Shown: positions 4,474 to 33,086 of the stretch, piece after piece
How positions within the stretch are numbered: position 1 is the first letter of the stretch
How the letters are laid out: every line of letters begins with the position of its first letter
Source of the DNA: a virus
IMG/VR virus record: IMGVR_UViG_3300042465_001206
Span: 1-33,086 of that record
DNA: 33,086 nucleotides
Reading direction: 5' to 3' (one strand)
The notes under the pieces: generated by a model
The model's input: only the letters and a program-made list of their open reading frames with translations
Database searches by the model: none
Told to the model about the DNA's origin: nothing
Made by a program: the position numbers and the translations under genes

Positions 4474-7323
4474 TTAGTAAGTCATTTCGGTTGTGCGAAT
4501 TTGTGCCACCCATTGAATGGTTGTAGCTGCTTGACCAGTTGCCGTGATAGCTAAAGCACCATTGGTAACGTCTGCTGTTGCAGTTAGGTTCCATGTAGCT
4601 GCCCCTGCATCTGCATACAAAGAGGTTACGCTAGGTGTACCAACAAGAACAGTAGACGCCGCATTAGCGCCGCGCTTAATTACGCCTTCAATATACCAAC
4701 CTTTACTATCGCCAGCGCCCGTAACTCCCGCAACACACTCACCACGGAAATAATATGCTGAGTTATTGGGTAGGATAACTTGATTATTTACCGAAGCGGT
4801 ATTTGAATCAGAAGATAACGCTATTGCAGTTGCGTTAGTTGTTTTTTTCGCCAGAACCAGCATTGCCAATTGTTGAGCGCCAACTGTAAAATTTACAATG
4901 CTTTCGCTTGCGCCAATTACAATATTTCCACTGATACCGCGTGTTGTGCCATTTGACGCGCCTATTGTGGCTGACCTAAGCCCAGAGGCAACATTAGATT
5001 GACCCCCCAAAACAGTTGCGCCTTGAGCAGATGCTGTGTTGGTTAGCCCACCTATAACTGTTGCGTAAACAGCAGAGGCTGTATTAGTATCTCCACCCGC
5101 AACAATTGAGCTTGTTCCTGTGGCTTTAGATAATTTCCCAATCGCAACACTGTTAGCCCCTTGCGCTCCATAGGTGGCAGTATTATTTCCAATCGCAGCA
5201 GCAAAGCTGTCCGTGCCTGATGCGTAGCTGCCGCCCAACGCCATTGCTCCTGCGCCTGTTACTGCTTGAGAGCCGTTTGCCGCGCTATTTGTACCGAGCG
5301 CAGTTGAGTAGCTAGAGGACGCTGTGATAGCGCCCGAGTATCCAATACCCAAAGCGGTAGACCCTTGCCCAGAAGCTGTTAGGTTATATCCAGCGCTAAA
5401 AGAATAACTACCAGATGCGGTAGATACAAGTCCTATAGCTACACCGTTTTCCCCTGACGCAAGCGGGGCAGGACCACCAGTATCTAAGTTTTCAGCATAC
5501 CCTCGCATTACTTTCTTATTGCCAGTTTGCCAGTTAGTCCCGTTACAGACAACTTGCATCCCTTCACCGCGCCTAAGAATTCGCGTTGCTTTACCATCAA
5601 TTGTTTCTGCACCAGCGGGGTCAATCGTGATTACGTTTGAAGCAGTAGTGCCTGTATTCCAAATAGTTACATTGAACCCAGCACCAAGCGTTGCGGCAGC
5701 AGTCAGGCTTACAGTAAACGTGCCGCTAGTGCAGTTAATAACCGCGCCAAGATCACCAGCAACAACGGTGTAGGCTGCTGTTTTGTCGGAGATAGTCAGA
5801 GTTGCGCTACCACCGCCACCACCCGCAGCGCTCGTCCAAGTCGAACCGTCTGAGGTCAGCACATTCCCGCTTGTGCCGGGAGCAACAAACAATGGCGCAG
5901 AAGTGCCATTGCCCAGCAGCACGTTGTTAGCCGTGAGCGTTGTGGCTCCTGTGCCGCCTCTGGCTACCGTTAGTGTTCCGGTAGTCCCACTTAATATCGG
6001 AAGCCCCGTAGCGTTGGTCAGAGTACCTGATTGTGGGGTGCCGAGTATGGGTGTAGTCAGTGTAGGGCTTGCAGCAAACACTAGCGCTCCCGTACCTGTT
6101 TCATCCGTGACCGCAGCAGCCAAAGTAGCAGATGTGGGTGTAGCAAGGAACGTGGAAACATTAGCACCTAAACCAGAAACCCCTGTAGTAATTGGAAGCC
6201 CAGTGACGTTGGTTAGCGTGCCTGATTGTGGGGTGCCAAGTATGGGGGTAACCAGCGTAGGGCTTGCGGCAAAGACCAAAGAACCCGTACCTGTCTCGTC
6301 AGTCACCGCAGTTCTTAAAGTAGCGGAAGTAGGGGTGGCAAGGAACGTGGAAACGTTAGCGCCTAAACCAGAAACCCCTGTAGTAATTGGAAGCCCCGTA
6401 GCATTAATTAAATTACCTGATTGTGGTGTACCCAAAACAGGCGTCACCAATGTGGGGCTGGTGGACAGCACAACATCGCCTGCTCCTGTCTTTGTAGTCA
6501 CTCCTGTGCCGCCGTTAAGTACTGCTAGCGTACCCGCCAAGGTGATGGTTCCCGATGTAGTAATTGGGCTACCAGAAACGGTTAGCCCAGTTGTGCCACC
6601 AGAAACGGCAACGCTGGTAACTGTGCCGCCGCCGCCGCCACTGCCATTTGCAGCGGCTGTAATTCTTCCTTGAGCATCAACAGTAATGTTTGCTGCGGTG
6701 TAAACCCCTGCCGTCACAGCGGTGTTTGCTAAGGCAACAGTTCCAGTTGTGGTGATTGGGCCACCTGTCAAACCTGTGCCAGTTGCAACACTCGTGACCG
6801 TGCCACTACCGCCGCCACCGCCGCCCCCTGCGCCTCCGCTGGTAATAATTTTGATGCGTTCTTCTAGGTCTTGTGAGACTACTTCGCCCACGTTGATAGC
6901 ACGGCCCGTTGATAGATCAATAATCAGGCTGCCATCAAAGTCAATGTGCGCGTCAGTGACGGAAACGCCATCTGTGCCGTCGATACCGTTGCGCCCGTCT
7001 ACGCCGTTTGTACCCCGTGGGCCAACTGCGCCGTCTCGTCCGGGTCTACCGTCTTTTCCCTCTCGACCATTAACCCCGTTTTGCCCGTCTTTGCCGTCCT
7101 TGATCGAGGCCACACGATCTTCAATAACTGCGGTAACACCGTCATACTTGTCTTGCAGATTGGACTCAATCTTCTTTAGCGCCTGGACAACTACTTTCAC
7201 GTTCTCTGAAGCCTTGCGCTTTTGCAGAGCCTTCACCTCTAAGATGGAGCTGTTTACCGCATCTAGTGCGTTGCCCCCAAGAGCGTCAACACCGTCAGAA
7301 CCAAAAATTTTATCGATTTCCAT
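4474..7323 (-). CDS. Long tail fibre: collagen-like region, tandem repeats and YadA-like beta-roll, 949 aa
   Basis: The domains are clear. Residues 20-75 are a helical coiled-coil stalk. Residues 77-119 are 14 Gly-X-Y triplets (collagen-like trimer). Gly-rich hinges follow near 163-174. Then come GTVTSV-type fibre repeats, and from residue 297 two full 65-aa units plus part of a third, each beginning LGTPQSG. Roughly residues 620-805 carry many NSVAIG/A-x-G-type repeats that resemble the left-handed beta-roll of YadA heads. The last 140 residues are probably the receptor-binding knob. All these elements are typical of homotrimeric adhesins. It overlaps the portal stop by 14 bases. Placement between portal and scaffold, away from the other tail genes, is unusual. 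Confidence 0.88.
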   Translation of the reverse strand: MEIDKIFGSDGVDALGGNALDAVNSSILEVKALQKRKASENVKVVVQALKKIESNLQDKYDGVTAVIEDRVASIKDGKDGQNGVNGREGKDGRPGRDGAVGPRGTNGVDGRNGIDGTDGVSVTDAHIDFDGSLIIDLSTGRAINVGEVVSQDLEERIKIITSGGAGGGGGGGSGTVTSVATGTGLTGGPITTTGTVALANTAVTAGVYTAANITVDAQGRITAAANGSGGGGGTVTSVAVSGGTTGLTVSGSPITTSGTITLAGTLAVLNGGTGVTTKTGAGDVVLSTSPTLVTPVLGTPQSGNLINATGLPITTGVSGLGANVSTFLATPTSATLRTAVTDETGTGSLVFAASPTLVTPILGTPQSGTLTNVTGLPITTGVSGLGANVSTFLATPTSATLAAAVTDETGTGALVFAASPTLTTPILGTPQSGTLTNATGLPILSGTTGTLTVARGGTGATTLTANNVLLGNGTSAPLFVAPGTSGNVLTSDGSTWTSAAGGGGGSATLTISDKTAAYTVVAGDLGAVINCTSGTFTVSLTAAATLGAGFNVTIWNTGTTASNVITIDPAGAETIDGKATRILRRGEGMQVVCNGTNWQTGNKKVMRGYAENLDTGGPAPLASGENGVAIGLVSTASGSYSFSAGYNLTASGQGSTALGIGYSGAITASSSYSTALGTNSAANGSQAVTGAGAMALGGSYASGTDSFAAAIGNNTATYGAQGANSVAIGKLSKATGTSSIVAGGDTNTASAVYATVIGGLTNTASAQGATVLGGQSNVASGLRSATIGASNGTTRGISGNIVIGASESIVNFTVGAQQLAMLVLAKKTTNATAIALSSDSNTASVNNQVILPNNSAYYFRGECVAGVTGAGDSKGWYIEGVIKRGANAASTVLVGTPSVTSLYADAGAATWNLTATADVTNGALAITATGQAATTIQWVAQIRTTEMTY
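5990..6435 (-). repeat. Tandem 195-bp repeats inside the long fibre gene
   Basis: Two full units (6435-6241 and 6240-6046) and a partial third (6045 to about 5990) each encode LGTPQSG...TGLP; the full units then add GVSGLGANVSTFLATPTS and TDETGTG. The protein units differ at only about seven of 65 positions. The same type of module occurs twice in the second fibre gene at 28323-29297. Confidence 0.88.
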
Positions 7324-9331
7324 TTGTCAACTCCGAGGAAAGATTTTCAAGAAAATAGTCTTCCATGTCACCAGCTTTGTTCATCTGGAGTTCAACTATC
7401 TTGGATTTGTTCTTGATGTCAGCTTCTTTTAGCATCAACTCGGCAATTTTAACCCGTTTGTCAAATTCGCTTGACTCATTTCCAGCGGGTAAGTTCCTAG
7501 ATGATGCAGAAATTACCTTGGCTTGAGTCTCAGCAGGCATCAGTTGCGTCTCGGTCATCAGTTTCTGCGCCTCTGCCCGATTCTGCTCGGCCTGAGTCGT
7601 GTCAACCGCAATCGCAGCTTGAGCCGCTTGCAAAGCGAGTTGCTGCTGCATTTGTTGCATCTGCTGCGCTTCTGGGTTGGGTTGGCTCATCTGATCAAGC
7701 GCTCCAATCAGTTCAAACCTGTTGGACAGGCTGGAATTGGTCAAGATACCCTTCAGGATCAGCGGCAGCACTGGCGTATTAGGGCCAAGTGTCTGCAACA
7801 GACCAATGAACTGCTGCTGCTCGTACTCTCTAGCAATAATGCCCAGCGTAGCCGTTGGGATGAACTTCATGTCCACCGATGGATAGCGCTCGGGGTCAAA
7901 CTGCATGTAGCGAAACGCTGCCTTTTGGATGAACGGAATCAAGAAATCCTCTTGGAAGTTCACCAGTGTGCGTTTGTACTTCTTGATGATGGTCGCTACT
8001 GCCATTGACATGCCAGCACCGTCACGGTTGCCTTGGCTGACCATACCTTGGCTGTCCATCGTGCCAGTGGCTTGAAGCAACATCCTCTCAAACTCTTTGG
8101 CCGTGTTGAGATTGTTCAGACTCGTTTCGCCAAACTTGAACGGGTAGAGAATCTCAGATGGATTGCCGTTCACCAAGAACGCTTTGCCCGGTTTAACCTC
8201 AAACTTAGCGCCCCGTGGCAGCCGAGATGCGTCCAGCCCTATCATGGGGCTGGTGGTAAGCGCCAGTGAGTCCAAGTGGCTACGCACTTGGGCGTCAATC
8301 GCCTTTTGCATGTTGTAGGACTTCTCCACCGTGCCCCTGCCCAGCAGCCGGTTCGGGACGGTATCGTCCTGATAGGACAGAACTGGCCTGTCCTTCATCA
8401 TGTACGGATTTTCTTCAGCTTTCAGTAGCATTCCATCATTGGCAATCACTACAATAGCTTCCACCATGTCGGCGTAGTCCTCTGCAACCGAGTCATCGGG
8501 AAACAGATTTTCTATCTCCACATCTTTCTCAGTCAGGTATTCCCTCGGCACAAGGCCATAATAGGTTAAGAGGCGCACTTTCCCGTCACGGTACTGGCTA
8601 ACCTCTTGAGTCGGCTCAAGATCAGTGTCTTCATCGCCAGTGGTAATGTTTACCTTGCGGTAGATGCCCTTCTCAATACCTTCCACAATCTTGTGGATGC
8701 TGACAAACTTCTCAATCGCCACACCCATGCAGTCGTCGATGCTTGTCCCGTTGGGGTCAAACAAGAAATTCTTAGGATTGACCGGCATGATCTTGACAGC
8801 AATGCGGCTTTTCTCCACCACACCAATAGCTGCTTGCCCCATCTGGCCCGGAATTGGCTGGGTAGCTGGCTCAAAGACCTTCTCAGTCTTCACCACAATC
8901 TCGCCAATGCCAGTCCCATAGATTTCTGCCATCAACTCGATCTGATCGATAGCTTTTCTTATCTTGTCCTGCTTAAAATCTTCCGTTAACTGGGCTTTAA
9001 GCATCTCGACATCTAACGGGTTGCCGTTAACGTCTTTCAGATCGTCCTCGATATCGAAGAAGTCGCCCTGACCGAAGATAGCTTCCATGATCTCAGCGTG
9101 CCGTGTCTCGACTGCCTGCTGGGTGGCTGGCGTCACAATTCGGCTGCGCTCAGACTCGCGTGTCTTGTCCTCCGCAGACCATTCGCCACGGAAAATGCGC
9201 TCGTATTCTAGGTATTGGGATAAAAAGTTCGTGTCCCGATAATCTCGCCAGCGGTCACAGTGGTCAGTGACAAAGGCTGTTAACTCTTTGTCGTTTTCTG
9301 TTGGTTCTTCGAACTCGTTTTGATCCATCAT
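7310..9331 (-). CDS. Portal (head-tail connector) protein, 673 aa
   Basis: The 673-aa protein has the size and layout of large portals of short-tailed phages. The N-terminal part has ERIFRGEW and the SRIVTPATQQAVETRHAEI region. The central part has PVNPKNFLFDP and LSYQDDTVPNRLLGRG typical of P22-like or environmental podovirus portals. The C-terminal third is a Gln-rich helical barrel with QQMQQMQQQ. It would form the dodecameric ring through which DNA is packaged and ejected. It lies next to the large terminase, separated only by an HNH gene whose stop overlaps its start. Two adjacent ATGs are possible; the second (9328) has the better spacing of 7 bases from GAGG. Confidence 0.9.
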   Translation of the reverse strand: MMDQNEFEEPTENDKELTAFVTDHCDRWRDYRDTNFLSQYLEYERIFRGEWSAEDKTRESERSRIVTPATQQAVETRHAEIMEAIFGQGDFFDIEDDLKDVNGNPLDVEMLKAQLTEDFKQDKIRKAIDQIELMAEIYGTGIGEIVVKTEKVFEPATQPIPGQMGQAAIGVVEKSRIAVKIMPVNPKNFLFDPNGTSIDDCMGVAIEKFVSIHKIVEGIEKGIYRKVNITTGDEDTDLEPTQEVSQYRDGKVRLLTYYGLVPREYLTEKDVEIENLFPDDSVAEDYADMVEAIVVIANDGMLLKAEENPYMMKDRPVLSYQDDTVPNRLLGRGTVEKSYNMQKAIDAQVRSHLDSLALTTSPMIGLDASRLPRGAKFEVKPGKAFLVNGNPSEILYPFKFGETSLNNLNTAKEFERMLLQATGTMDSQGMVSQGNRDGAGMSMAVATIIKKYKRTLVNFQEDFLIPFIQKAAFRYMQFDPERYPSVDMKFIPTATLGIIAREYEQQQFIGLLQTLGPNTPVLPLILKGILTNSSLSNRFELIGALDQMSQPNPEAQQMQQMQQQLALQAAQAAIAVDTTQAEQNRAEAQKLMTETQLMPAETQAKVISASSRNLPAGNESSEFDKRVKIAELMLKEADIKNKSKIVELQMNKAGDMEDYFLENLSSELTNGNR

Positions 9332-9879
9332 GCGACCTCGTATCGGTTGTTTTTGCGCATATTTTCAAGTGCGGGTATGACGCGTAGGTTGTTAGGTACA
9401 TGAAGACCACTAACGAACTCGCCTTGTAACGGGATTATATGGTCAACATGCCAATCGTAGCCGCTTTCACGGCTGCGCATAGCCGCCAGTTGGTACAGGC
9501 ACTTGATTTTAACTAGGTCAAACTCTGTCAACCATGTAGGTGTCCGCTGCAATTTGGCGCTTTTCCTAGCCATTTGCAGTTTTGTGCGAATTGGCTGATT
9601 TTTGGCTCGGTATCTTGTTAGCGCTGCAAGATGCGCTTGCCTTGAATCGCCCGTAGACCTACGCTGCCTCGCTGCGCCGTTTATTTTTTCTCGGTGCTCC
9701 GCATCATACTGCCTATCCCTTAGGCACTTGCAGTTTTTGCAATAGGCTTGAAGCCCGTCTCTGCGACCCTTGTGCTTAAAAAAAGAAGTTGTAGGGAGTG
9801 TCTGTTTACATTTTGGGCAGAGCTTTGTTAGCTCAAACACCTGAGATGATGTCGAGGGGTTGCCAAGAATTTTCGTCAT
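9328..9879 (-). CDS. HNH homing-type endonuclease, downstream of the terminase, 183 aa
   Basis: A zinc-binding part has C21-x2-C24 and C47-x2-C50 (CPKCK and CKNCK). A long basic linker follows. The HNH core is HVDHIIPLQG (residues 144-153), then LHVPNNLRVI with the second Asn/His position and ENMRKNNR. The start is the ATG at 9879 because GAGG lies six bases upstream; a longer open frame into the terminase gene is ignored. The 5' end overlaps the last 47 bases of the terminase and the stop overlaps the portal start. It is a free-standing nicking or cleaving enzyme likely to act as a selfish homing gene. Its core resembles that of the HNH gene at the other end of the terminase. Confidence 0.85.
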   Translation of the reverse strand: MTKILGNPSTSSQVFELTKLCPKCKQTLPTTSFFKHKGRRDGLQAYCKNCKCLRDRQYDAEHREKINGAARQRRSTGDSRQAHLAALTRYRAKNQPIRTKLQMARKSAKLQRTPTWLTEFDLVKIKCLYQLAAMRSRESGYDWHVDHIIPLQGEFVSGLHVPNNLRVIPALENMRKNNRYEVA

Positions 9880-11095
9880 CATCTTCCTCAAAGTAACTGG
9901 TAACAGCCAGTTGGTCAATGTAAGAAAGCGCATCTGGAAGGTCGTCATGGACGCCTTGGCTCGGAAACATGAGCAGTTGATCCGTAAAGTCTGACCAATC
10001 TTCCTCACTATTAAGAATGATTCTACCGTGTTCAAACCTACCTTGCAATGACCAAATAACACGATCCGTCTTTTTTCTGTTTCCATGGGTCAGATCAACA
10101 ATATGGCTATAAATGTTATTTTTACGCATTAAGTCCGATAGGTACGGAAGAACGGCGTTTTTTAATGCGCCTCTTTCGATACCTACACTTAACGGCCTGT
10201 ACTCGCGCATTGCCATGAGAATACGGGATGCCGTGTCACGAATATCCCACCTGCCATGTTCAATCTCTTTGACAAACCACTTGCCGTCGTCTGTCACTTT
10301 TACCACCGCAATGGCCGACTCATCTAGCCTTTTCTTGGAATTCGCCGCCTGCTTCGCCACTTCCTCAAATCCCGCCAAGTCCACCGCCACGAAGTAGCTG
10401 CCATACTCAGGCTCGACGCCGTACTTGATCCACTCCTCTTTAAACACATCCGCGCCAGCGTTGGAGAAAGACGCCAAGAATTCCTGCTTGAACGCGAAGC
10501 TGCTGAGTGTCTTCTTGGCTGACTCAATCTCACTAGCGTCTATCAATGGGTTATCCGCTGTCGTGAAGTGCCATGACTTCCAATCGCTGTCCTGCTCATC
10601 TTGCCCCAACTTCCACAGGTCATGGAACCAGTTGCGACCCTTTGGCGTGCCAATAAACATCGCCCGGCCCTTGCGGTCTGACAAAGACGCCCGAATGACC
10701 TGCTCCCACGCCTCGGGCTTGATGTCGGCCACCTCGTCCAGCACCGCATAGGTCAAGGAAACGCCCCGCAGCGTGTCCGGCCTGTCAGCGCCCCGCACAT
10801 AAATCCTTGCGCCATTGATCAGCGTGATGTCCAAGTTGTTGACATGGCTCGACTGGATCACCTCGCGCCCCAGATCAAGCAGCAAGTCCCAAACAATTTG
10901 CCTCGACTGCCCCATCGTAGGAGACACATACAGCACTGCCGATCCCGGTGGACAACGCAAGCCCTCAATGATAAGTGTGGTGGCTGCTAGCCTACTTTTC
11001 CCACACCGCCGTCCAGCCGCAATTACTTTGAACCTCGTGGAATCTAAATAAACTTCTTGTTGCCAAGGCAGTAAGGAAAAATTAAGGTCAGACAT
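9833..11095 (-). CDS. Terminase large subunit, 420 aa
   Basis: The packaging motor ATPase and nuclease. With the ATG at 11095, Walker A is AGRRCGKS (residues 27-34), Walker B is YAVLDE (116-121) and the coupling motif is GTPKG (149-153). The C-terminal RNase H-like nuclease shows D239 (VAVDLAG), E307 (GIERG) and HDDLPDALSY (383-392). The 420-aa length is normal for the compact terminases of this group. A TTG start 30 bases upstream is open but less likely; neither has a strong ribosome binding site, perhaps because the upstream HNH gene was inserted here. The start overlaps the upstream HNH gene by 8 bases and the end overlaps the downstream HNH gene by 47 bases. Confidence 0.95.
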   Translation of the reverse strand: MSDLNFSLLPWQQEVYLDSTRFKVIAAGRRCGKSRLAATTLIIEGLRCPPGSAVLYVSPTMGQSRQIVWDLLLDLGREVIQSSHVNNLDITLINGARIYVRGADRPDTLRGVSLTYAVLDEVADIKPEAWEQVIRASLSDRKGRAMFIGTPKGRNWFHDLWKLGQDEQDSDWKSWHFTTADNPLIDASEIESAKKTLSSFAFKQEFLASFSNAGADVFKEEWIKYGVEPEYGSYFVAVDLAGFEEVAKQAANSKKRLDESAIAVVKVTDDGKWFVKEIEHGRWDIRDTASRILMAMREYRPLSVGIERGALKNAVLPYLSDLMRKNNIYSHIVDLTHGNRKKTDRVIWSLQGRFEHGRIILNSEEDWSDFTDQLLMFPSQGVHDDLPDALSYIDQLAVTSYFEEDDDENSWQPLDIISGV

Positions 11096-11594
11096 GAAAT
11101 TTATTTTTCTTTCTTTGGTTATCAACTTTGGTCAAGACCTGTAAATTCCACGGAACATGCAGCCCACTTACCAACTTTCCGCGCAATGGTACTATGTGGT
11201 CAACATGGTAATGTTCCCCTGTGTGCATACCAAGCATGTGCGCGGTAAAGTAGTATTCTTCAATTTTCTCAAAAGCACAATCATCTAACCATTTTGGTGT
11301 TCGCAGTAGCATTTCCGACCTTTTCTTGGCGGAATACGAGGCTTGCTTGTGTCTGTTGTCTGTGCGCCAAAGCACCATACGATCGGCGTATTGTGATTTT
11401 TTTGCTGAGTAGTTCGCCCGCATTTGGCCGAGACGATCTTCTTTTTTTGCTTCAAAATCAACAGCCATGCACTCGCAACAAGTGCCCTTGCCTGTATAGC
11501 GTTTGGAAATGTGGCCGCGCTTACAGGGTTTGCCGGTACTGTAAAAACGCTCGCCAAGTTCTTTTGCCTTGGCACGATCTGCTGCTTTTGTCAT
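11088..11594 (-). CDS. HNH homing-type endonuclease, upstream of the terminase, 168 aa
   Basis: The N-terminal zinc finger is C24-x3-H28 (PCKRGH) with CCEC near residues 39-42, a pattern common in phage HNH proteins. The catalytic core is HVDHIVPLRG (130-139), then LHVPWNLQVL and a basic end RKKNKF. The start ATG at 11594 has AGAGG five bases upstream. An open frame 16 codons longer lacks a good site. It sits between the small and large terminase genes and its stop lies 5 bases inside the terminase start. It probably cuts phages lacking the insertion. Core similarity to the HNH gene at 9328-9879 suggests shared origin, while the zinc fingers differ. Confidence 0.85.
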   Translation of the reverse strand: MTKAADRAKAKELGERFYSTGKPCKRGHISKRYTGKGTCCECMAVDFEAKKEDRLGQMRANYSAKKSQYADRMVLWRTDNRHKQASYSAKKRSEMLLRTPKWLDDCAFEKIEEYYFTAHMLGMHTGEHYHVDHIVPLRGKLVSGLHVPWNLQVLTKVDNQRKKNKFHV

Positions 11595-11658
11595 GGTGGC
11601 CTCTTTTAGAAGGGTTGGGGTGGTCAGCCACGCGCACCCCAAAACGCGCTAAAAGCTC

Positions 11659-12024
11659 TTACGAGTCGGCTTGCCTATATTCTACATCTTGAGCAATAGC
11701 CGCACCTTCAATAGTAGGTAAGATTTCGCCTAACCCCGTGATATTGATCGTGACTGCTGACCTTTGGCCTTTGTCTTTTTCAAACATGCTGACTGGCAGC
11801 GTCCTGTCCATGCACATCTTCAGCGCCGCCATCTGACCGGGATGCTCATCGTTGAGCGCAATCTGGATTACCTTTTCAGCTACATCCTTACCGCCAGACC
11901 GGATCATCAACTCTTTGAGCTCCTTGATGCGCTGGTGATCCGTCTTGGGTAGCGTCGCCGGTGGATTCTCTGCGTAGCGCTGGATCGTCATCTGGACTGA
12001 ACTTAACTTTTTTTTCGTAGCCAC
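11659..12024 (-). CDS. Putative terminase small subunit, 121 aa
   Basis: The 121-aa protein starts with a basic N-terminus (MATKKKLSSVQMTIQRY). A helical centre contains VAEKVIQIALNDEHPGQMAALKMCMDRTLP, and the tail is short and beta-like (SAVTINITGLGEILP). The DEHPGQMAALK segment is one I associate with the gene preceding the large terminase in environmental podoviruses. The start is GTG with AGGG a few bases upstream. It would recognise the packaging site and feed DNA to the large subunit. No classical helix-turn-helix is obvious, so the assignment rests mostly on place, size and the helical core. It is separated from the large subunit only by the HNH gene. Confidence 0.65.
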   Translation of the reverse strand: MATKKKLSSVQMTIQRYAENPPATLPKTDHQRIKELKELMIRSGGKDVAEKVIQIALNDEHPGQMAALKMCMDRTLPVSMFEKDKGQRSAVTINITGLGEILPTIEGAAIAQDVEYRQADS

Positions 12025-12486
12025 TTTACCCTTTCGGAGTTTTTGCTATTTTAGCTTTTTCGGAGGGGAGGTGGGTACACCAATATTCACAACCAACGAC
12101 GACCCCCTCCCCCCCCCATCCAAAAGCCAAAAACCTAGGGAAAACCCTAAATCCATATTCTACGATCATCATTATGTTAAGTGATTTAAAAGTTATGCAC
12201 ATAAAATGTAATGCCAACGATCTACATTTGTGGATAACTTTTATGGGTTGTGGATAACTTTGGCAAAAACCCTGTGGATAACCCGGCTTGAGCAGAAAAA
12301 ATTGGGGGGAAAAAGAAAAGAGAAAAAGAGGCGGATGGTGCTTCCCGGCAGTACCTAATCCCGATAGCCAAATCCTATCGACATCTCCAAACCGATAGCT
12401 TCACTCAAACAATACTTTTATAACAAGCCAGTTCCCAACCATCGCCAATGCCTCGCCAAGGGCTTTAAACGGGGCTACAAGGCGTT
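12025..12486. other. Non-coding stretch, left part of the origin-like region
   Basis: No convincing gene was found in these 462 bases; a 63-codon minus-strand frame at 12026-12217 is unsupported. The stretch holds a run of nine C (12109-12117), four DnaA boxes at 12193-12281, and a purine-rich tract near 12301-12335. The remainder to 12486 has short CCGATAG/CTATCG elements but nothing I can name. Confidence 0.7.
12193..12281. promoter_or_regulatory. DnaA boxes, left cluster (four)
   Basis: TTATGCACA at 12193-12201 on the plus strand, then TGTGGATAA (TTATCCACA on minus) at 12229-12237, 12249-12257 and 12273-12281. The first three boxes also share the flank AAAG before TTAT, read in the box direction, giving a longer repeated word AAAGTTATSCACA. 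The three inverted boxes start 20 and 24 bases apart. Confidence 0.85.
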
Positions 12487-12723
12487 CTAATCGTCAGGCT
12501 CTAGGATGGTCAGGGAGACAGCATCTCGTGCCGTAGAGGGCCGCAATCCAAGATTGTAAAAAAATTGGTAGGTGTCGATAACTTCCAAGAAGCCAGCGGA
12601 CATATCACCATCACCAGCAGCCAAAAGCGTAGCCCTCTCAGCGGGCCCGAGCTTGCGCTGGAAGTGTTTGACGTTAGGGTCTGCTGGTCTGCCCAATCCA
12701 TAAACTCCCATTTGAATCACCAT
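12487..12723 (-). CDS. Small possible DNA-binding protein embedded in the origin, 78 aa
   Basis: The 78-aa protein contains GRPADPNVKHF, then LGPAERATLLAAGDGDMSAGFLEVID. The ...LLAxGdGdxSAGf... pattern is reminiscent of ribbon-helix-helix-type regulators that carry a G-N/D-x-S-x-G-I/F turn, but I cannot confirm the fold. It ends YQFFYNLGLRPSTARD. The ATG at 12723 has GGA only three bases away; the fifth codon (also ATG) has a GGA too far upstream, so the exact start is uncertain. DnaA boxes flank it on both sides, so it could act in origin control or copy control, or regulate the late operon that begins nearby. Confidence 0.6.
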   Translation of the reverse strand: MVIQMGVYGLGRPADPNVKHFQRKLGPAERATLLAAGDGDMSAGFLEVIDTYQFFYNLGLRPSTARDAVSLTILEPDD

Positions 12724-12767
12724 CTTTCCAAAAAGTAGGCAACCTCAAGTCACCCTATCCAAAAAAG

Positions 12768-12968
12768 TTATCCACAGGCAAAACTCAATTTCAAGTCTAA
12801 CCCTCAAAAACCCTGCATCGCCTTGACCCTATGACCCCAACCCTAAGGGTTGGGGGTCAGGGAGGGTCAACTTTGGCGCTGTTTTGCCCATTTTTGACCC
12901 TGACCCTAGACTTGACCCTAGGGTCATTTAGGGTCAACATTTTAAAAGTTATCCACAGGTTATCCACA
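12768..12968. promoter_or_regulatory. DnaA boxes, right cluster (three)
   Basis: TTATCCACA occurs on the plus strand at 12768-12776, 12949-12957 and 12960-12968. The last two start 11 bases apart, about one helical turn, so they face the same side of the DNA. The first two share the AAAAGTTAT flank seen in the left cluster. They lie just beyond the stop of the primase-helicase gene (12982). Confidence 0.85.
12823..12937. repeat. TGACCCT iteron array with palindromes
   Basis: TGACCCT occurs on the plus strand at 12824, 12895, 12901 and 12913, and as AGGGTCA at 12863, 12920 and 12930; TGACCCC (12832) and GGGGTCA (12853) are variants. CCAACCCT-A-AGGGTTGG (12837-12853) is a palindrome, as is TGACCCTAGGGTCA at 12913-12926. 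Short repeats clustered beside DnaA boxes are what one expects of iterons for an initiator or regulator. Confidence 0.82.
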
Positions 12969-12981
12969 GGGCAATTTGCCA

Positions 12982-15000
12982 TCAAGTCTCAGCATTCTTA
13001 CGCATCATCATGCTGCTTGCCTGCGTTTCATCGACCATAGTCCAGCCATGTTCAGTCGCCTCAATCATCCCAGACTGGATTAAAGCGCCGATCAGCTTGT
13101 CGTTGTAGGACGGGTTAATCATATTTCTGACGGTGCGCTCGGCGTTCCCATCTGCCGCTAGTTTGTCTTTCAGGGCTGATCTGGATAGATACGGGCGGTC
13201 ATCCCTGACTTCAGCATCGCTGGCCCACCAAGCGTTCTCCCACATTTTGCGGTGGGCGTCTATCTTGGAGTCCTTCTTTGATGGGGCGGCTGGTGCGGTA
13301 GCCTGGACTGGAACGGCGCTGGTGACTGGCTGGTTGTCCTCGTCGTACCAACTTGGAATAACGACTTGTTGCAAGTCCATGTAGATGGGGCTGGCAATTT
13401 CTGCGTCCTTTGACTTGCGCTGCACCAATTGCATGGGTTGGTTGGGGCTGGCGGGGATAACGCTGATCTCGATGTCCAATGCTCCACGCCAGGCTGATGA
13501 ACCTCTGGCACGGTGCTGGGCTTCTTCGGATACGCCTGTGTGGTGGACTAAGATGACTGAGCAGTTGAATTCCAGCATTAGGTTGGAGCAAGCGTCCAGC
13601 ATGGTCTTGGCATCTTGGGCACTATTCTCGTCACCGGCCAAGAATCGGTGCAGGGTATCTACTACTATGACCTTTGGCGGATCGGGGAGCATTCGGACAT
13701 GTTCGACCACCTTGAGGTAGCCGACTGGGGTGTTGAGGTCGCAGCCATGTTTGGAGAGCCACATGCTGAGTTTTCCGGCTTTGTGGTGATGCTTCCAAGC
13801 GGCTATTCGGCTTTTTAGTCCGTGGTGGCCTTCGCCTGCTAAGTAGACAACATTGCCTGCTTTGACCCTGTTTCCGCACCAATCGGGGGTGGCGCTGGCA
13901 ATTCTCAAGCACCAGTCCAGCACCACAAATGTCTTGCCGCCACCAGATGGGCCATGCACCATGACCAAAGCCTGCTCCTGAACCCAACGCTTAACCAACC
14001 ACGAGATGGGGCTGGGTTGGGATGAAAACTCGTCGGCGGGGACGAGCCAGTCGGTCACTGATGGCGCTAAAAGGCTAGCCAGATCATGCCCAGCTTGGAC
14101 ATAATCGTTGGCATCACCGAGAATCGGAGGCATAACCATGCGTGCGCCGTATTTGGCACTGGCTTGCTCGGCATAGCGTTGGCCTACGCCAGAGGCGTCG
14201 TTATCGGCCACAACCACGATTTCCTGAGTTGGGCCGTGCTTTTCTCGCAATGAGCCGGTCACTGGCACTAAGTTGCTGGCGCTGTAGGCGACCACCACAG
14301 GGCGATTTGTAGCCTCATAAATGGTAGCTGCGGTGGCAAAGCCTTCGGCAACATAAATCGTGCCGGGTTCATCTAGTGATCCTATCTGCCAAAACTTACC
14401 ACCAGTTTGACCGCCTGAGTGGTACAACTTGCCGCCTTCGTGGTCTATGTATTGCAGGGTGGACAGTGTGCCGTCTGCATCGTACAGGGGAAGAACTAAC
14501 CGCCCATCTCCTGTAATCCGTGCGCCATGCACCTTGATGCCCTTGCGCTGAAGGTAAGGATGTTCGGCACTGGCCGCTTGTGCGCCTGTCCAGATTTTCT
14601 CGACTGTGTCGCTGGCGACCTGATGCTGGCGCTCGATGGCGGCGTCCCGCAAGGCTTTGGCCTCAGCTAATCGCTTGGCGTGTGACATTTCCTCGGTTTG
14701 GCTTAGTTTTCGGCCTATATCTGCACGCCAAGTTTGCTCCATACCAGCACGCCAGCACCCAAAACGCCCAGCGGGGATGCCATCGCCAAAGACCAAGTAC
14801 CAGCCCGGTTTGTCGCCGTGTCCTGGCGATCCCTTTGTGCCAGACCGAAAGCGGTGAATCTTGCCATCGAAATTAATTTCCTCTGGTGGCTCAAGCCCCG
14901 CAGAACGCATGGCGTCAATGAGTTGGTGTTCAGGGGGAGCGACTAACTTTTCTGGGGATGGCGACCACGGGCCACCGAGGATGTTTGACAGATCAGCCAT
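12982..15000 (-). CDS. Toprim primase / RecA-fold (RepA-like) helicase, 672 aa
   Basis: A two-domain replication protein. Residues 165-310 form a toprim domain, with E219 in IYVAEGFATAAT and D266-x-D268 in VVVADNDAS. Residues 335-520 form a RecA-like AAA_25/RepA helicase domain, with Walker A GPSGGGKT (350-357), Walker B VIVVDT (444-449) and LVHHTG (484-489). The N-terminal part (1-100) contains GKIHRFR and GCWRAGMEQTWR, typical of phage toprim primases, but no clear zinc finger. The C-terminal end resembles a winged-helix or DNA-binding tail. AAGG lies six bases before the ATG. It should unwind and prime DNA at the adjacent origin. Its start overlaps the HTH regulator stop by 8 bases. Confidence 0.9.
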   Translation of the reverse strand: MADLSNILGGPWSPSPEKLVAPPEHQLIDAMRSAGLEPPEEINFDGKIHRFRSGTKGSPGHGDKPGWYLVFGDGIPAGRFGCWRAGMEQTWRADIGRKLSQTEEMSHAKRLAEAKALRDAAIERQHQVASDTVEKIWTGAQAASAEHPYLQRKGIKVHGARITGDGRLVLPLYDADGTLSTLQYIDHEGGKLYHSGGQTGGKFWQIGSLDEPGTIYVAEGFATAATIYEATNRPVVVAYSASNLVPVTGSLREKHGPTQEIVVVADNDASGVGQRYAEQASAKYGARMVMPPILGDANDYVQAGHDLASLLAPSVTDWLVPADEFSSQPSPISWLVKRWVQEQALVMVHGPSGGGKTFVVLDWCLRIASATPDWCGNRVKAGNVVYLAGEGHHGLKSRIAAWKHHHKAGKLSMWLSKHGCDLNTPVGYLKVVEHVRMLPDPPKVIVVDTLHRFLAGDENSAQDAKTMLDACSNLMLEFNCSVILVHHTGVSEEAQHRARGSSAWRGALDIEISVIPASPNQPMQLVQRKSKDAEIASPIYMDLQQVVIPSWYDEDNQPVTSAVPVQATAPAAPSKKDSKIDAHRKMWENAWWASDAEVRDDRPYLSRSALKDKLAADGNAERTVRNMINPSYNDKLIGALIQSGMIEATEHGWTMVDETQASSMMMRKNAET

Positions 15001-15178
15001 GCGCTACCTTCCGACTTTCCAGATAGTTAGACAAGGCCAACATCACTTTGTGCGTAGGGTTGGCATTTGGGTTGTCGCGCATCTGCCGGATGGTGTTGTA
15101 GTGAATGCCGGTTGCCTCGGCTACCTTGCTGGGCATTCGGTCAGAAAGTGCGTCTCGTATTTGCTCTAAGGTCATCAT
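14993..15178 (-). CDS. Small helix-turn-helix regulator, 61 aa
   Basis: Residues 15-35 (MPSKVAEATGIHYNTIRQMRD) form a good helix-turn-helix of the Cro/excisionase-like kind, followed by a helical second half (HKVMLALSNYLES). AAGGA lies about eight bases before the first of two ATGs. It is the first gene of the leftward arm, immediately beside the divergent control region at 15179-15300 with its inverted repeat. It probably represses or activates one or both divergent promoters. Its gene is coupled to the primase-helicase, so expression of replication may be self-limiting. No partner repressor gene or integrase is seen, so this is not evidence of lysogeny by itself. Confidence 0.75.
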   Translation of the reverse strand: MMTLEQIRDALSDRMPSKVAEATGIHYNTIRQMRDNPNANPTHKVMLALSNYLESRKVAHG

Positions 15179-15234
15179 GGTGCTTTTCCTTTGTTAAATT
15201 AATTTATTTCAATGGTTGTATGTTACCCCAGATT

Positions 15235-15256
15235 GTGTGCTACAGTTCAAGCACAC
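15235..15256. promoter_or_regulatory. Inverted repeat in the divergent control region, possible operator
   Basis: GTGTGCT and AGCACAC form perfect 7-bp arms around an 8-base spacer, in the 122-base gap between the leftward HTH gene and the rightward Sak4-like gene. A dyad of 22 bases is the right size for a dimeric HTH operator. I could not place convincing -35/-10 boxes on either strand. Confidence 0.5.
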
Positions 15257-15300
15257 CCAGAACAGATTTCCTGAAGTGGGTGAAAATCAAGGAGAGCCAA

Positions 15301-15978
15301 ATGGCTATCAATCTGAAGTCAACAGGTGGTCTAACCGCCAATGGAGTGAAGTTGTTGGTGTATGGGGCAGCAGGGTCAGGCAAGACTACGCTGGTCAAGA
15401 CACTGCCCAATGTGATCGTATTGTCTGCCGAGGGCGGTCTGCTGTCTATCCAAGACGCTGATTTGCCTTACATTGAGATTACGTCAATGGACGATTTGCG
15501 TGAGGCATTTGCTTGGTGCAAAGACAGTAAAGAGGCTGAAGGCTTCCAATCTGTGGCTCTGGACTCAATCAGCGAGGTGGCTGAGGTGGTGCTGCACCAT
15601 GAAATGAAGAAGTCTAAAGATGGTCGCGCAGCTTACGGCGAAATGAATAGCACCATGCAGGAGTTGATCAGGGCGTTCCGAGACTTGCCGGGCAAGCATG
15701 TTTACATGAGCGCCAAGTTGGAGAAAAGCACAGACGAGATGGGCAAGATGCTCTACAACCCGGGAATGCCAGGCAAGAGCCTCACCCAAGGCTTGCCTTA
15801 CTTCTTTGATGAAGTGTTGGCACTGCGTGTCGAGCGAGATGCCGAGGGCGTAACGCAACGCGCACTGATGTGCGATAGCGATGGCCTCTGGCTGGCCAAG
15901 GATCGCTCAGGCAAGCTGGAAGCGTGGGAAGCGCCAGATTTGGGTGCAATCATTAACAAGATTGGGGGCAAGGCATGA
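15301..15978 (+). CDS. Sak4-like RecA-fold ATPase (AAA_24), 225 aa
   Basis: Walker A is GAAGSGKT (residues 22-29), followed by PNVIVLSAEGGL, a Walker B-like VALDSISE (residues 85-92), then AYGEMN, LIRAFRDLP and VYMSAKLEK. This is the order of AAA_24 phage ATPases that include the Sak4 single-strand annealing recombinases. AAGGAG lies just before the ATG at 15301. Longer open frames upstream lack a site. It is coupled to the 128-aa gene and followed by a DUF669 SSB-like gene, a known pairing for Sak4. It probably loads on SSB-coated single strands and helps homologous recombination and replication restart. The alternative is a plain NTP-binding replication factor. Confidence 0.85.
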   Translation: MAINLKSTGGLTANGVKLLVYGAAGSGKTTLVKTLPNVIVLSAEGGLLSIQDADLPYIEITSMDDLREAFAWCKDSKEAEGFQSVALDSISEVAEVVLHHEMKKSKDGRAAYGEMNSTMQELIRAFRDLPGKHVYMSAKLEKSTDEMGKMLYNPGMPGKSLTQGLPYFFDEVLALRVERDAEGVTQRALMCDSDGLWLAKDRSGKLEAWEAPDLGAIINKIGGKA

Positions 15979-18130: not shown

Positions 18131-19713
18131 GAGACTACCAACAAAGAACGATAGACCAACTTTACGCATGGTTTGAAGAAGGCGGCAAGGGCAATCCTTG
18201 TCTGGTGCTGCCCACCGGCTCTGGCAAGAGTCACATTGTGGCTGCGCTGTGCAAGGATGCCTTGCAGAACTGGCCTGAGACGCGAGTTTTGATGCTCACG
18301 CATGTCAAGGAATTGATTGAGCAGAACGCTGAGAAGATGCGCCAGCACTGGCCGGGTGCGCCGATGGGCATCTACAGCGCAAGCATTGGGCGCAAGGACT
18401 TGGGTGAGCCGATTACCTTTGCTGGCATCCAGTCTGTGCGTACCAAAGCGCATCAGTTGGGCCACATTGATCTGGTGATCATTGACGAGTGCCACTTGGT
18501 CAACCACAAAGACGAGGGCGGCTACCGCACGCTGTTGGAGCAACTCAAGGCAATCAATCCTGCTTTGCGGGTAGTTGGGTTGACCGCTACACCTTACAGG
18601 CTTGGGCATGGACTGATCACCGACAAGCCTGCGCTGTTTGACGCATTGATTGAGCCGATCAGCATTGAGGAGTTGGTGTTTAAGGGCTATCTGTCAACGC
18701 TGCGCTCAAAGGTCACCAAGGCCAAGCTGGATGTGACTGGTGTGCATAAGCGGGGCGGCGAGTTCATTGAGTCTGAGTTGCAGGCCGCTGTTGATACTGA
18801 CGATCAGAATCAGAAGGTGGTGGGCGAGGTTGTGGCTTTAGCTGGTGACCGCAAGGCATGGCTGTTTTTTTGCGCTGGCGTAAATCACGCGCAGCACGTT
18901 GCAGAAGTCTTGCGCCAGCAGGGTGTGGCGGCTGAGTGCGTGACGGGTGAGACACCAAAGAAAGAACGTGAGCGCATGATCGGCGACTTCAAGGCTGGCA
19001 AGCTAAAAGCCTTGACAAACGCCAATGTGCTGACAACTGGCTTTGACTATCCCGACATTGACCTGATCGCCATGCTGCGCCCGACGATGAGCGCCAGTCT
19101 GTACGTCCAGATGGCGGGTCGAGGGATGCGCGTCAAGAGCCACACCGATCATTGTCTGGTACTGGACTTCGCTGGTGTGGTGGCTACGCATGGCCCGATC
19201 ACTGCTGTCCAGCCCCCAAAGAAAGGTGGCGATGGTAACGGCGAAGCACCAGTGAAAGTCTGCGATAACTGCGGCGAGTTGTGCGCTATTTCAGCGTCTG
19301 TTTGCCCAGCCTGTGATACTCCATTTCCAGCCCCAGAACCCAAGAAACTCAAGCTGCACAACGATGACATCATGGGGCTGGAGGGGCGTGATTTGGATGT
19401 AACAAGCTGGACATGGCGCAGGCACATCAGTAAAGCCTCTGGAAAGGAGATGCTGGCAGTGACTTATTACGGTGGCTTGAGCGACCCAGCAGTGACCGAG
19501 TACCTCGCCGTGACGCACGATGGTTATGCAGGCCAGACGGCTTTGCAAAAGCTCGCAACCATAGCGCAAAGCGCTCAGATCAAGCAGGGTGGCCTTAATG
19601 TGCAGTCGTTGGATGAGATGGCAGTCAACATGAATCAAGCTCAACCACCGAGCAGCATTGAGTTCAAAAAGGATGGTAAGTTTTTTAGAGTAATGAGAAG
19701 GAAATGGGCATGA
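18124..19713 (+). CDS. SF2 DEAD/DEAH-type helicase with C-terminal zinc ribbon, 529 aa
   Basis: Motif I LPTGSGKS (residues 29-36), motif II DECH (121-124), motif III GLTATP (152-157) and motif VI QMAGRGMR are all present, along with TTGFDYPDID in the second RecA lobe. A C-terminal zinc ribbon CDNCGE...CPACDTPF follows, and then a beta-rich tail domain. The start at 18124 is chosen because it gives MLRDYQQRTI, the Q-motif-like beginning of this family; the longer frame is the overlapping small ORF. It resembles RAD3/SSL2-like phage helicases found beside PD-(D/E)XK and VRR-NUC nucleases, and should unwind or remodel branched DNA. Confidence 0.93.
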   Translation: MLRDYQQRTIDQLYAWFEEGGKGNPCLVLPTGSGKSHIVAALCKDALQNWPETRVLMLTHVKELIEQNAEKMRQHWPGAPMGIYSASIGRKDLGEPITFAGIQSVRTKAHQLGHIDLVIIDECHLVNHKDEGGYRTLLEQLKAINPALRVVGLTATPYRLGHGLITDKPALFDALIEPISIEELVFKGYLSTLRSKVTKAKLDVTGVHKRGGEFIESELQAAVDTDDQNQKVVGEVVALAGDRKAWLFFCAGVNHAQHVAEVLRQQGVAAECVTGETPKKERERMIGDFKAGKLKALTNANVLTTGFDYPDIDLIAMLRPTMSASLYVQMAGRGMRVKSHTDHCLVLDFAGVVATHGPITAVQPPKKGGDGNGEAPVKVCDNCGELCAISASVCPACDTPFPAPEPKKLKLHNDDIMGLEGRDLDVTSWTWRRHISKASGKEMLAVTYYGGLSDPAVTEYLAVTHDGYAGQTALQKLATIAQSAQIKQGGLNVQSLDEMAVNMNQAQPPSSIEFKKDGKFFRVMRRKWA

Positions 19714-32656: not shown

Positions 32657-32970
32657 ATCAACTCAGTCACAGAAAATGTAGACGTAGTAATCCCAGCATC
32701 TTTGATGACAGCAATCTTTTGACCAGGGCTGACCCGAATAATCTCAGAAAAGTTATTAGGCATCATGGGCGATGTCGTAATGCTGGCCGTTGGGTTTGTG
32801 CCGACTTGGAAATGGCAATGCCCTTGTGAGCAAGACAGCCGAACCATCGTAGTAGACGCGCCAAAGGCCGTCGATTGAACGCTAGAAGCGGTAACAGTAA
32901 ACACCTGCGTTACCCCCAAACTGGGGACGCCAAGCGCCACTTGGTTGGGGTCAAGTTGGAAGGTAGACAT
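32653..32970 (-). CDS. Small beta-rich hypothetical protein, 105 aa
   Basis: A 105-aa protein whose N-terminus (MSTFQLDPNQVALGV) lies in the terminal repeat, continuing into strands VTQVFTVTASSVQ, TMVRLSCSQGHCHFQV and KIAVIKDAGITTSTFSV. It looks like a small beta-sandwich, with two Cys (LSCSQGHC). Both ends are coupled to neighbours. It could be a minor head or tail protein. Family unknown. Confidence 0.68.
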   Translation of the reverse strand: MSTFQLDPNQVALGVPSLGVTQVFTVTASSVQSTAFGASTTMVRLSCSQGHCHFQVGTNPTASITTSPMMPNNFSEIIRVSPGQKIAVIKDAGITTSTFSVTELI

Positions 32971-33086
32971 TACTTACCTCGTTTGGCTTTGGTCGCCATG
33001 TTGGTGGCAGTGCGCTGTCCACGCTTAGGCAGTGGCTTTGGCTTTCCAACGGCAACCATGATAGCCACAGGCATGGCTTTTTTGCC
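32883..33086. repeat. Terminal direct repeat, right copy
   Basis: Bases 32883-33086 are the second copy of bases 1-204, with G at 32959 in place of A at 77. The offset of 32,882 is constant throughout, so there are no insertions or deletions. Confidence 0.9.
32970..33086 (-). CDS. 3' part of the 47-aa basic protein gene, second copy
   Basis: The last 38 codons and stop of the gene that is complete at 88-231, repeated because the contig wraps. The start lies beyond the right end. It is identical to the left copy over this stretch. Confidence 0.75.
   Translation of the reverse strand, partial: GKKAMPVAIMVAVGKPKPLPKRGQRTATNMATKAKRGK

Follow-up and report, generated by a model that had tools for sequence, protein, structure and literature searches.

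A putative phage replication origin in which iterons, bracketed by DnaA boxes, covary with a C-terminal helix of the adjacent primase-helicase

Introduction

The C-terminal domain of the SaPI Rep protein is described as recognising iterons just downstream of its own gene (PMC7581432, citing Ubeda 2007) and, in SCCmec, the isolated C-domain of Cch2 is reported to bind iterons (PMC7581432). The P4 alpha protein combines a Toprim-type primase, unwinding and a winged-helix origin-binding domain acting on repeats in one protein (PMC4234260). In P1, F, RK2 and pSC101, initiator iterons and DnaA boxes share one origin and the initiators are winged-helix proteins. According to the same source, P1 carries two DnaA-box arrays, plasmid iterons measure 17-22 bp and, in RK2, the inversion of one box abolished replication (PMC4980987). 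In the PLE satellites of Vibrio cholerae, initiator and origin were reported to covary and to be swapped as modules (PMC7145576, PMC8263062), and an origin-directed nuclease may select for their diversification (PMC8263062). Geminiviruses have iterons of 5-6 nt at a conserved position, bound by the cognate Rep, with a word that differs between close relatives and an identity argued to be non-essential for replication (PMC12548392).

Here, we describe a locus of a phage genome in which iterons and DnaA boxes lie together beside a primase-helicase gene. Relatives were placed near the phages CGphi29 and 1N2-2 by helicase (PMC12629253), in a text in which a word search found no mention of primase, iterons, DnaA or origin of replication. 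Among the matches listed by a literature search that left most subscription journals outside, no paper dealt with the replication origin of this group of phages.

Genome form and gene content

The window, i.e., the whole analysed stretch of 33,086 nucleotides (IMG/VR record IMGVR_UViG_3300042465_001206), has ends that overlap by 204 bp with one mismatch (positions 1-204 and 32883-33086), hence the phage genome is probably a 32,882-bp circle, recorded with a redundant end. The ORF set comprised 52 that were translated or scanned, and 30 distinct window ORFs were profile-scanned, mostly against PHROGs. Pfam and PHROG profile searches identified structural and lysis genes (terminase, portal, major head protein, holin and endolysin), together with a replication and recombination set consisting of the primase-helicase, a Sak4-like protein, a DUF669 single-strand binding protein, a Cas4-type exonuclease, a helicase and a VRR nuclease. 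Among the 30 distinct ORFs scanned of the 52, mostly against PHROGs, none matched a DNA polymerase in its own right, an integrase or a dedicated Rep (WH1-WH2) initiator family; the primase-helicase matched phrog_906, named ‘DNA polymerase/primase’, with its helicase part only.

Two genes matching endonuclease VII/HNH PHROG families (9328-10086 and 11088-11642) flank the large terminase ORF (9833-11125), overlapping either end of it, and are possibly homing endonucleases. A 949-aa protein encoded at 4474-7323, with collagen-like Gly-X-Y and repetitive Thr/Ser/Gly-rich segments and no PHROG match at E 0.001, is probably a tail fibre.

DnaA boxes and iterons in the window

The preliminary description of this DNA had reported seven exact TTATNCACA boxes within 776 bp, five of them carrying the extended word AAAGTTATSCACA, with four to the left and three to the right of a 78-aa gene and the coding end of the primase-helicase just past the last box. 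This arrangement is borne out (Table 1) and is conserved in near relatives. The number of boxes is far above chance, with about 0.02 exact boxes expected per 776 bp and 0.89 in the whole window (sd 1.08; maximum of 4 in 100 shuffles), and the rest of the window contains one further exact box, at 18741 on the minus strand. When one mismatch is allowed, the window holds 22 boxes vs a shuffle mean of 24, hence the signal resides in the exact boxes, which were scored by a consensus that may not be the host's own DnaA box.

Two other parts of that description were only partly right. The three right-hand boxes are indeed all on the plus strand, but the left group, described as inverted, is mixed, with one plus and three minus boxes. 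Similarly, the TGACCCT iterons proved to be real repeats, but consist of nine TGACCC/GGGTCA words in both orientations, all located between the boxes at 12768 and 12949. None of 100 dinucleotide shuffles reached nine copies (locus L005 of the set described below is the window's own sequence).

Table 1. Coordinates of the features discussed, in window positions.
Feature	Coordinates	Strand	Basis or remark
Left-group DnaA box (TTATGCACA)	12193..12201	+	left cluster alignable in the GGGTCA-clade relatives compared
Left-group DnaA box	12229..12237	-	exact box; cluster alignable in GGGTCA-clade relatives
Left-group DnaA box	12249..12257	-	exact box; cluster alignable in GGGTCA-clade relatives
Left-group DnaA box	12273..12281	-	exact box; cluster alignable in GGGTCA-clade relatives
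78-aa gene between the box groups	12487..12723	-	no Pfam or PHROG match at E 0.01
Single DnaA box, far side of iterons, 181 bp from pair	12768..12776	+	exact box; conserved spacing
Iteron element, 5 TGACCC + 4 GGGTCA	12824..12936	both	starts 12824, 12832, 12854, 12864, 12895, 12901, 12913, 12921, 12931
Inverted repeat CCCCAACCC-TAA-GGGTTGGGG inside iteron element	12835..12855		sequence
Core GGGCAAAACAGCG between two iteron blocks	12877..12889	-	related core in near relatives with other words, by eye
Tandem-pair DnaA box between iterons and primase gene	12949..12957	+	11-bp pair spacing conserved
Tandem-pair DnaA box between iterons and primase gene	12960..12968	+	11-bp pair spacing conserved
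Primase-helicase, 672 aa, proposed initiator	12982..15000	-	Toprim primase, RSF1010-RepA-like helicase, C-terminal predicted winged helix
C-terminal domain, residues 575-672, proposed iteron-binding	12985..13278	-	predicted winged helix; word-associated columns
Helix 621-628 (ERTVRNMI), proposed recognition helix	13117..13140	-	peak covariation; helix in both models
61-aa helix-turn-helix protein, upstream of primase-helicase	14993..15178	-	phrog_18104 transcriptional regulator, 1.9e-10

The primase-helicase

The primase-helicase matches the Pfam families Toprim_3 (3.6e-12) and AAA_25 (2.5e-35), as well as PHROG primase/helicase families. Its helicase domain gave a profile match with the RSF1010 RepA structure 1g8y (E 1.5e-6, profile positions 322-501) and is related to the RSF1010 RepA family of hexameric helicases. 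The C-terminal domain is predicted by AlphaFold2 to fold as a winged helix (pLDDT 92.7), with generic winged helices as fold neighbours (Z up to 7), and a profile search returned no solved relative (best E 0.92). The P4 alpha structure was absent from the 50 neighbours shown in each of two fold searches, an absence that carries no evidential weight.

Iterons follow the primase-helicase gene in relatives

IMG/VR was scanned with the primase-helicase and the best 80 of 256 loci were taken; further scans and four deposited phages led to 334 loci in total. Together with the window, these are 335 sequences, of which 317 have a stop codon and 298 at least 250 bp downstream from it. Overlapping fetches of one contig occur among the loci, and the collapse of identical downstream stretches left 231 distinct ones.

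Within the first 280 bp, the top-scoring 6-mer exceeds dinucleotide shuffles in 177 of the 231 distinct relatives at p<=0.05 and in 166 at p<=0.01; in 135 of these 166, no repeat window elsewhere in the fetched locus is stronger than the iteron element. In a control stretch 700-980 bp downstream, no 6-mer exceeds four copies in 184 out of 187. The 54 relatives that miss p 0.05 partly carry 5-bp GGAAC words, which are under-called by 6-mer counting, and are partly truly without iterons. A clade with an unrelated helix sequence (GSRRNLIDG; the L164-L203 group, e.g., L164, L174 and L197) lacks iterons after the primase-helicase gene; in the remainder of the DNA fetched for this clade, the best repeat windows contain only 4-6 copies.

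A typical element follows the primase-helicase stop directly; a 5-6 bp word, present in both orientations, makes up its two blocks, and it includes an inverted repeat. By eye, a GGGGCAAAAC-like core is also found in the element of near relatives. An inverted repeat with an arm of at least 7 bp is present in 152 of the 177 iteron-positive relatives, whereas the control stretch contains one in 22 of 138; in only 44 of the 152 does the exact word lie inside this repeat. The word itself differs between groups, with GGGTCA in the window's clade and AGGGGG, GGTAAC, GGAAC, GGACAA, ACGGAC, CGTACC, AGGGTA and others elsewhere. Among named phages, it is GGGACA in Salicola phage CGphi29, GGTACA in Idiomarinaceae phage 1N2-2 and GGTTCA in Alteromonas phage PB15.

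A first scan of cellular genomes found no relative, and a second one found 39 contigs, mostly MAGs loosely tied to hosts. Fifteen of the 16 contigs L335-L350 with enough downstream DNA contain a 6-mer 5-11 times in 280 bp (a count made without shuffle comparison), and these contigs hold one exact DnaA box in all.

The iteron word covaries with a helix of the primase-helicase

Covariation was analysed in 193 loci (p<=0.2, count of at least 4, protein of more than 600 aa), thinned to 138. Each alignment column was scored for being more different between different-word than between same-word loci at equal identity of residues 1-575. The top 30 word-associated columns of 672 fall within the C-domain (residues 576-672) in 30 cases when gaps are counted and in 29 when gaps are ignored, the lone outside column being residue 572, just before the domain. 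With gaps ignored, 15 of the 30 lie within 617-634, where covariation is highest. Where residues 1-575 are at least 95% identical, the mean C-domain identity is 0.95 for 17 same-word pairs and 0.64 for 17 different-word pairs. In the predicted structure, the covarying residues are found mainly on helix 621-628 and the following loop. In the first alignment (MAFFT), for which a gap counted as a difference, a Gln/Val residue fell into column 623 for one group and 626 for others; the repeat with gaps ignored and a second alignment gave nearly the same outcome, and the top column of the second alignment (L-INS-i) is 626, which holds this residue.

The Gln/Val position, with which N626 of the window aligns, separates the relatives carrying the words GGTAAC and GGAAC. 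GGTAAC loci have Gln in 36 out of 38 and Leu and Met in the other two, while all 27 GGAAC loci have Val, so that word and residue are concordant in 65/65 loci (Gln/Leu/Met vs Val). When only C-domains sharing more than 85% identity are compared (33 different-word pairs, 160 same-word pairs), every one of the 33 different-word pairs differs at three columns, at which the same-word pairs differ in 1% (Gln/Val position), 7% (632) and 31% (633). Residues 632 and 633 hence also track the GGTAAC/GGAAC switch and the Gln/Val residue is not the sole one to do so. A tree of the rest of the protein implies nine word switches by parsimony, at least six of them on well-supported branches, and in independent pairs the residue goes with the word in 6/6 (p 0.031). 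This tree was built by a quick method, has long end branches (L213, L205, L328 and L320) and was used with Leu and Met scored with Gln.

This coupling points to the phage primase-helicase as the reader of the iterons. It could, however, partly come from recombination, and a stronger form of this explanation holds that the gene end and the iterons are exchanged as a block, which would generate the covariation around a domain that does not bind the iterons. The helix and the iterons are only ~100-350 bp apart, and the type of C-domain is independent of the rest of the protein. Yet, in near-identical C-domains, the differences concentrate at the Gln/Val position and at 632-633. Furthermore, the loci L120 and L117 hardly differ in their DnaA boxes, in the gene that follows or in the 3′ end of the primase-helicase gene, apart from the Gln/Val codon, the neighbouring Ser-Pro/Ala-Thr pair and the iteron words, the sequence between those codons and the iterons being almost unchanged. 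Such shared intervening sequence weakens the case for recombination, and block exchange around a non-binding domain is considered improbable. Because the DnaA boxes of L120 and L117 remain in place while the word changes, they form an independent layer.

Neighbouring genes as alternative readers

Two neighbouring proteins were considered as readers of the iterons. Relatives of the 78-aa gene lie at most 1 kb downstream of the primase gene in 33 of 39 GGGTCA loci, in 1 of 33 GGTAAC loci and in none of 26 AGGGGG loci. The protein is thus unlikely to be a general iteron binder, being confined almost wholly to the GGGTCA clade. The 61-aa helix-turn-helix protein is found in 78 of the 138 loci and is an unlikely reader, since its sequence shows little association with the iteron word: same-word and different-word pairs have about the same identity, except in the small top bin (0.74 vs 0.64; 10 and 14 pairs).

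The intergenic position of the repeats and the presence of this helix-turn-helix gene upstream of, and in the same direction as, the primase-helicase could also suggest that the repeats are operators, or another regulatory element for the adjoining genes, rather than an origin. However, they are located 3′ of the primase-helicase, away from its promoter, the downstream 78-aa gene is restricted almost entirely to one word group, and the protein that covaries is the primase-helicase instead of the helix-turn-helix protein. Hence, we regard an operator as very improbable.

DnaA boxes in relatives

Over the first 84 loci, the density of exact boxes is 2.26 per kb in the 1.5 kb that follow the primase-helicase vs 0.03 per kb elsewhere (raw counts, near-copies included, of 222 boxes in 98 kb and 24 in 788 kb). 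In 18 whole records of relatives, 46 of 61 exact boxes, as tallied from their positions, lie at most 1.2 kb downstream of the primase-helicase; one of these records has no box and another has its sole box inside the primase-helicase gene. Boxes are therefore rare elsewhere in these genomes, as in the window. An exact box inside the gene, ~1.1 kb before the end of the primase match, was also seen in L061-L066, L070, L072 and others. In the source records of L072 and L091 (60.7 and 39.7 kb), a further TTATGCACA/TTATCCACA pair, with ~1.3 kb between its members, is found at a great distance from the primase. Its resemblance to the gene-internal and origin boxes suggests that these records contain the region in a second or redundant copy.

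The order of the boxes was examined through their spacing, as column entropies around the boxes are circular when loci are chosen by exact boxes. In 25 window-type loci (near-copies and the window's own copy, L005, counted in), the distance from the pair to the single box is 181 bp in 24 and 182 bp in one, and the spacing within the pair, where both boxes are exact, is 11 bp in 24 of the 25. The geometry is thus conserved in near relatives. In 44 loci, mostly of the GGTAAC/GGAAC type, all three right-hand boxes are reversed; their pair is 11 or 12 bp apart and their single box lies 178-181 bp from the pair in 37. The boxes of the L072-type clade are in opposite orientation. In L100, the usual place is empty, and two boxes, seven GGTAAC words and one box are found with normal spacing ~1 kb further downstream, an arrangement from which it seems that the box-iteron-box module can relocate as a single unit.

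At least one exact box within 1.2 kb is present in 30 of 39 GGGTCA, 27 of 33 GGTAAC, 14 of 16 GGGAAC and 10 of 10 AACGGA loci, and in 19 of 26 AGGGGG loci, five of which have two or more. For the remaining words, boxes are rare within this distance, with the exceptions of L245, which has four, L223, which has one, and L328, L119, L131 and L144, all four from the GGTAAC/GGAAC neighbourhood. Where a locus has no word, an exact box within 1.2 kb is seen in 3 of 32. Exact boxes are missing from the first 1.2 kb downstream in many relatives with iterons; the iteron-bearing named phages CGphi29, 1N2-2 and PB15 contain none in the stretch searched (1.2-1.5 kb; 574 bp for 1N2-2). The iterons, and not the DnaA boxes, are the widely conserved part.

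These observations bear on the role of DnaA. The preliminary description had suggested a plasmid-like phage origin dependent on the host initiator. At such an origin, DnaA would be the main initiator as at oriC and the primase-helicase would only take over at the fork. The seven exact boxes and their conserved geometry fit this proposal. So does the cluster that L027-type relatives carry at the place of window positions 12026-12300, which is longer, has many DnaA boxes, exact or near (TTGTCCACA among them), surrounding a conserved AT-rich stretch, CATTATGTCAAAT, and may be oriC-like or a DnaA-controlled promoter of the late operon. An oriC-type origin, however, should keep its boxes wherever the origin is found, and iteron-bearing relatives without exact boxes do not; in addition, the coupling of word and helix designates the phage protein as the reader. 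Host-only initiation was rejected as the main mechanism because iterons are widespread while many of their carriers lack exact boxes in the 1.2 kb. Since boxes are absent from many iteron-bearing relatives and reversed in the L072 type, the mechanism as such is unlikely to require DnaA, and a DnaA-driven origin would be a surprising outcome. A plasmid-like iteron origin with conserved DnaA boxes is the part of the original proposal that remains the best reading.

The boxes could otherwise act outside initiation, by titrating host DnaA as phage copies build up and slowing initiation of the host, or by allowing DnaA to time late transcription. Consensus boxes such as those of the window, which we take to be high-affinity DnaA boxes, would be suited to titration. 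The left group, which has a conserved CATTATGT motif at its side, immediately precedes the leftward packaging operon and is thus a possible late-promoter site for the timing variant. Nevertheless, the three right-hand boxes bracket the iterons at fixed spacing despite changes of word and move with them in L100, neither of which titration alone would require, and a promoter scan of 11950-15350 gave 3 promoter-like sites vs 2.5 in shuffles and was not used (nor was a terminator scan of the same region, with 8 terminator-like sites vs 4.2). A role confined to titration or timing seems unlikely for the boxes as a whole; the left group (12193-12281) is probably a second DnaA-regulated site of the GGGTCA clade, perhaps as an accessory part of the origin or as a late-promoter control.

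A model for replication initiation

We infer, with a probability of about 0.75, that the segment 12768-12968 is the core of a replication origin at which the phage primase-helicase acts as initiator via the iterons and host DnaA plays an accessory role. Sequence comparison shows the boxes, the iterons, their conservation and the link between word and helix. The C-terminal winged helix of the primase-helicase would bind the TGACCC/GGGTCA iterons directly after its own gene, the RepA-like helicase domain would open the DNA or load at the iterons and the Toprim domain would prime, with a polymerase presumably supplied by the host. Host DnaA, if it occupies the tandem pair on one side of the iterons and the single box on the other, may help by bending, looping or melting the DNA. 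Contrary to the earlier statement that the phage has no initiator gene, it probably encodes one, as the iteron word follows the proposed recognition helix of the primase-helicase.

GC skew, which had been suggested as a means to map the origin, is confounded by gene direction and was given little weight. Its minimum in the window, at 13,243, lies within the terminal part of the primase-helicase gene rather than where gene direction switches, at ~15.1 kb. The window and two near relatives thus fit the proposed site, but other relatives are mixed: in ten relatives, the minimum is at most 0.3 kb from the primase stop in two, at 1.9-3.3 kb in five and elsewhere in three. GC-skew support for the origin site is weak.

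A bolder reading, towards which we lean only slightly, is that of a reprogrammable, self-primed origin. In this reading, one short helix would set the word, a Gln-to-Val change (with 632-633) would retarget the protein from GGTAAC to GGAAC, a dozen or more words would have arisen and DnaA would have been added as a second key in one branch. If true, fast changes of word could keep co-infecting phages, satellites and origin-directed nucleases from using or cutting the origin, and the system would offer a readable protein-DNA code for mutually orthogonal replicons. An odd DnaA-box cluster leads to a testable model of replication start in a large, mostly uncultivated phage group, in which repeated word switches on near-constant backgrounds are natural variants for reading how an initiator helix chooses its DNA. 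If confirmed, the model would provide compact initiator-origin pairs of different specificity and a route to asking why phages change their origin words.

Comparison with known systems

The iteron plasmids resemble the window in having iterons and DnaA boxes in one compact segment. They differ from it in that the words here are of 5-6 bp, in both orientations and with a hairpin, and the proposed initiator is a helicase-primase; we know of no helicase or primase in the Rep proteins of iteron plasmids. Unlike in RK2, all three boxes are reversed between clades. The geminiviruses are plant ssDNA viruses with an unrelated Rep protein. The PLE RepA is a RepA_N initiator with an N-terminal DNA-binding domain, and no primase or helicase activity is predicted for it (PMC7145576, PMC8263062).

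The likeness with SaPI Rep and SCCmec Cch2 lies in the short iterons directly 3′ of the helicase gene, in the window and in 177 of 231 relatives (p<=0.05). The C-domain sets origin specificity in those systems; here, it covaries strongly with the word and may have a similar function. However, theirs are satellite or cassette elements with DUF927 or D5/Primase_Cterm-type helicases. The present locus belongs to a phage whose Toprim primase is fused to a helicase resembling RSF1010 RepA; it also has DnaA boxes and shows a word-to-residue link across many relatives. Pfam identifies just AAA_25 and Toprim in the primase-helicase, and no DUF927 or D5/Primase_Cterm core. It would therefore function like the self-loading SaPI/SCCmec type although, by its domains, it is not a member of those protein families.

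P4 alpha also unites Toprim primase, helicase and winged helix in one chain, the winged helix being predicted in the present case. Its helicase, which we take to be of the SF3/D5 class, differs from the AAA_25/RSF1010 RepA core found here, and to our knowledge DnaA has no role at the P4 ori. A self-sufficient helicase-primase initiator and host DnaA are, as far as we know, separate modes that appear combined here. Judged by sequence, the proposed origin resembles the initiator origins of the SaPI and P4 type; the helicase core of its presumed initiator places that protein outside both families, and the DnaA boxes are an additional feature.
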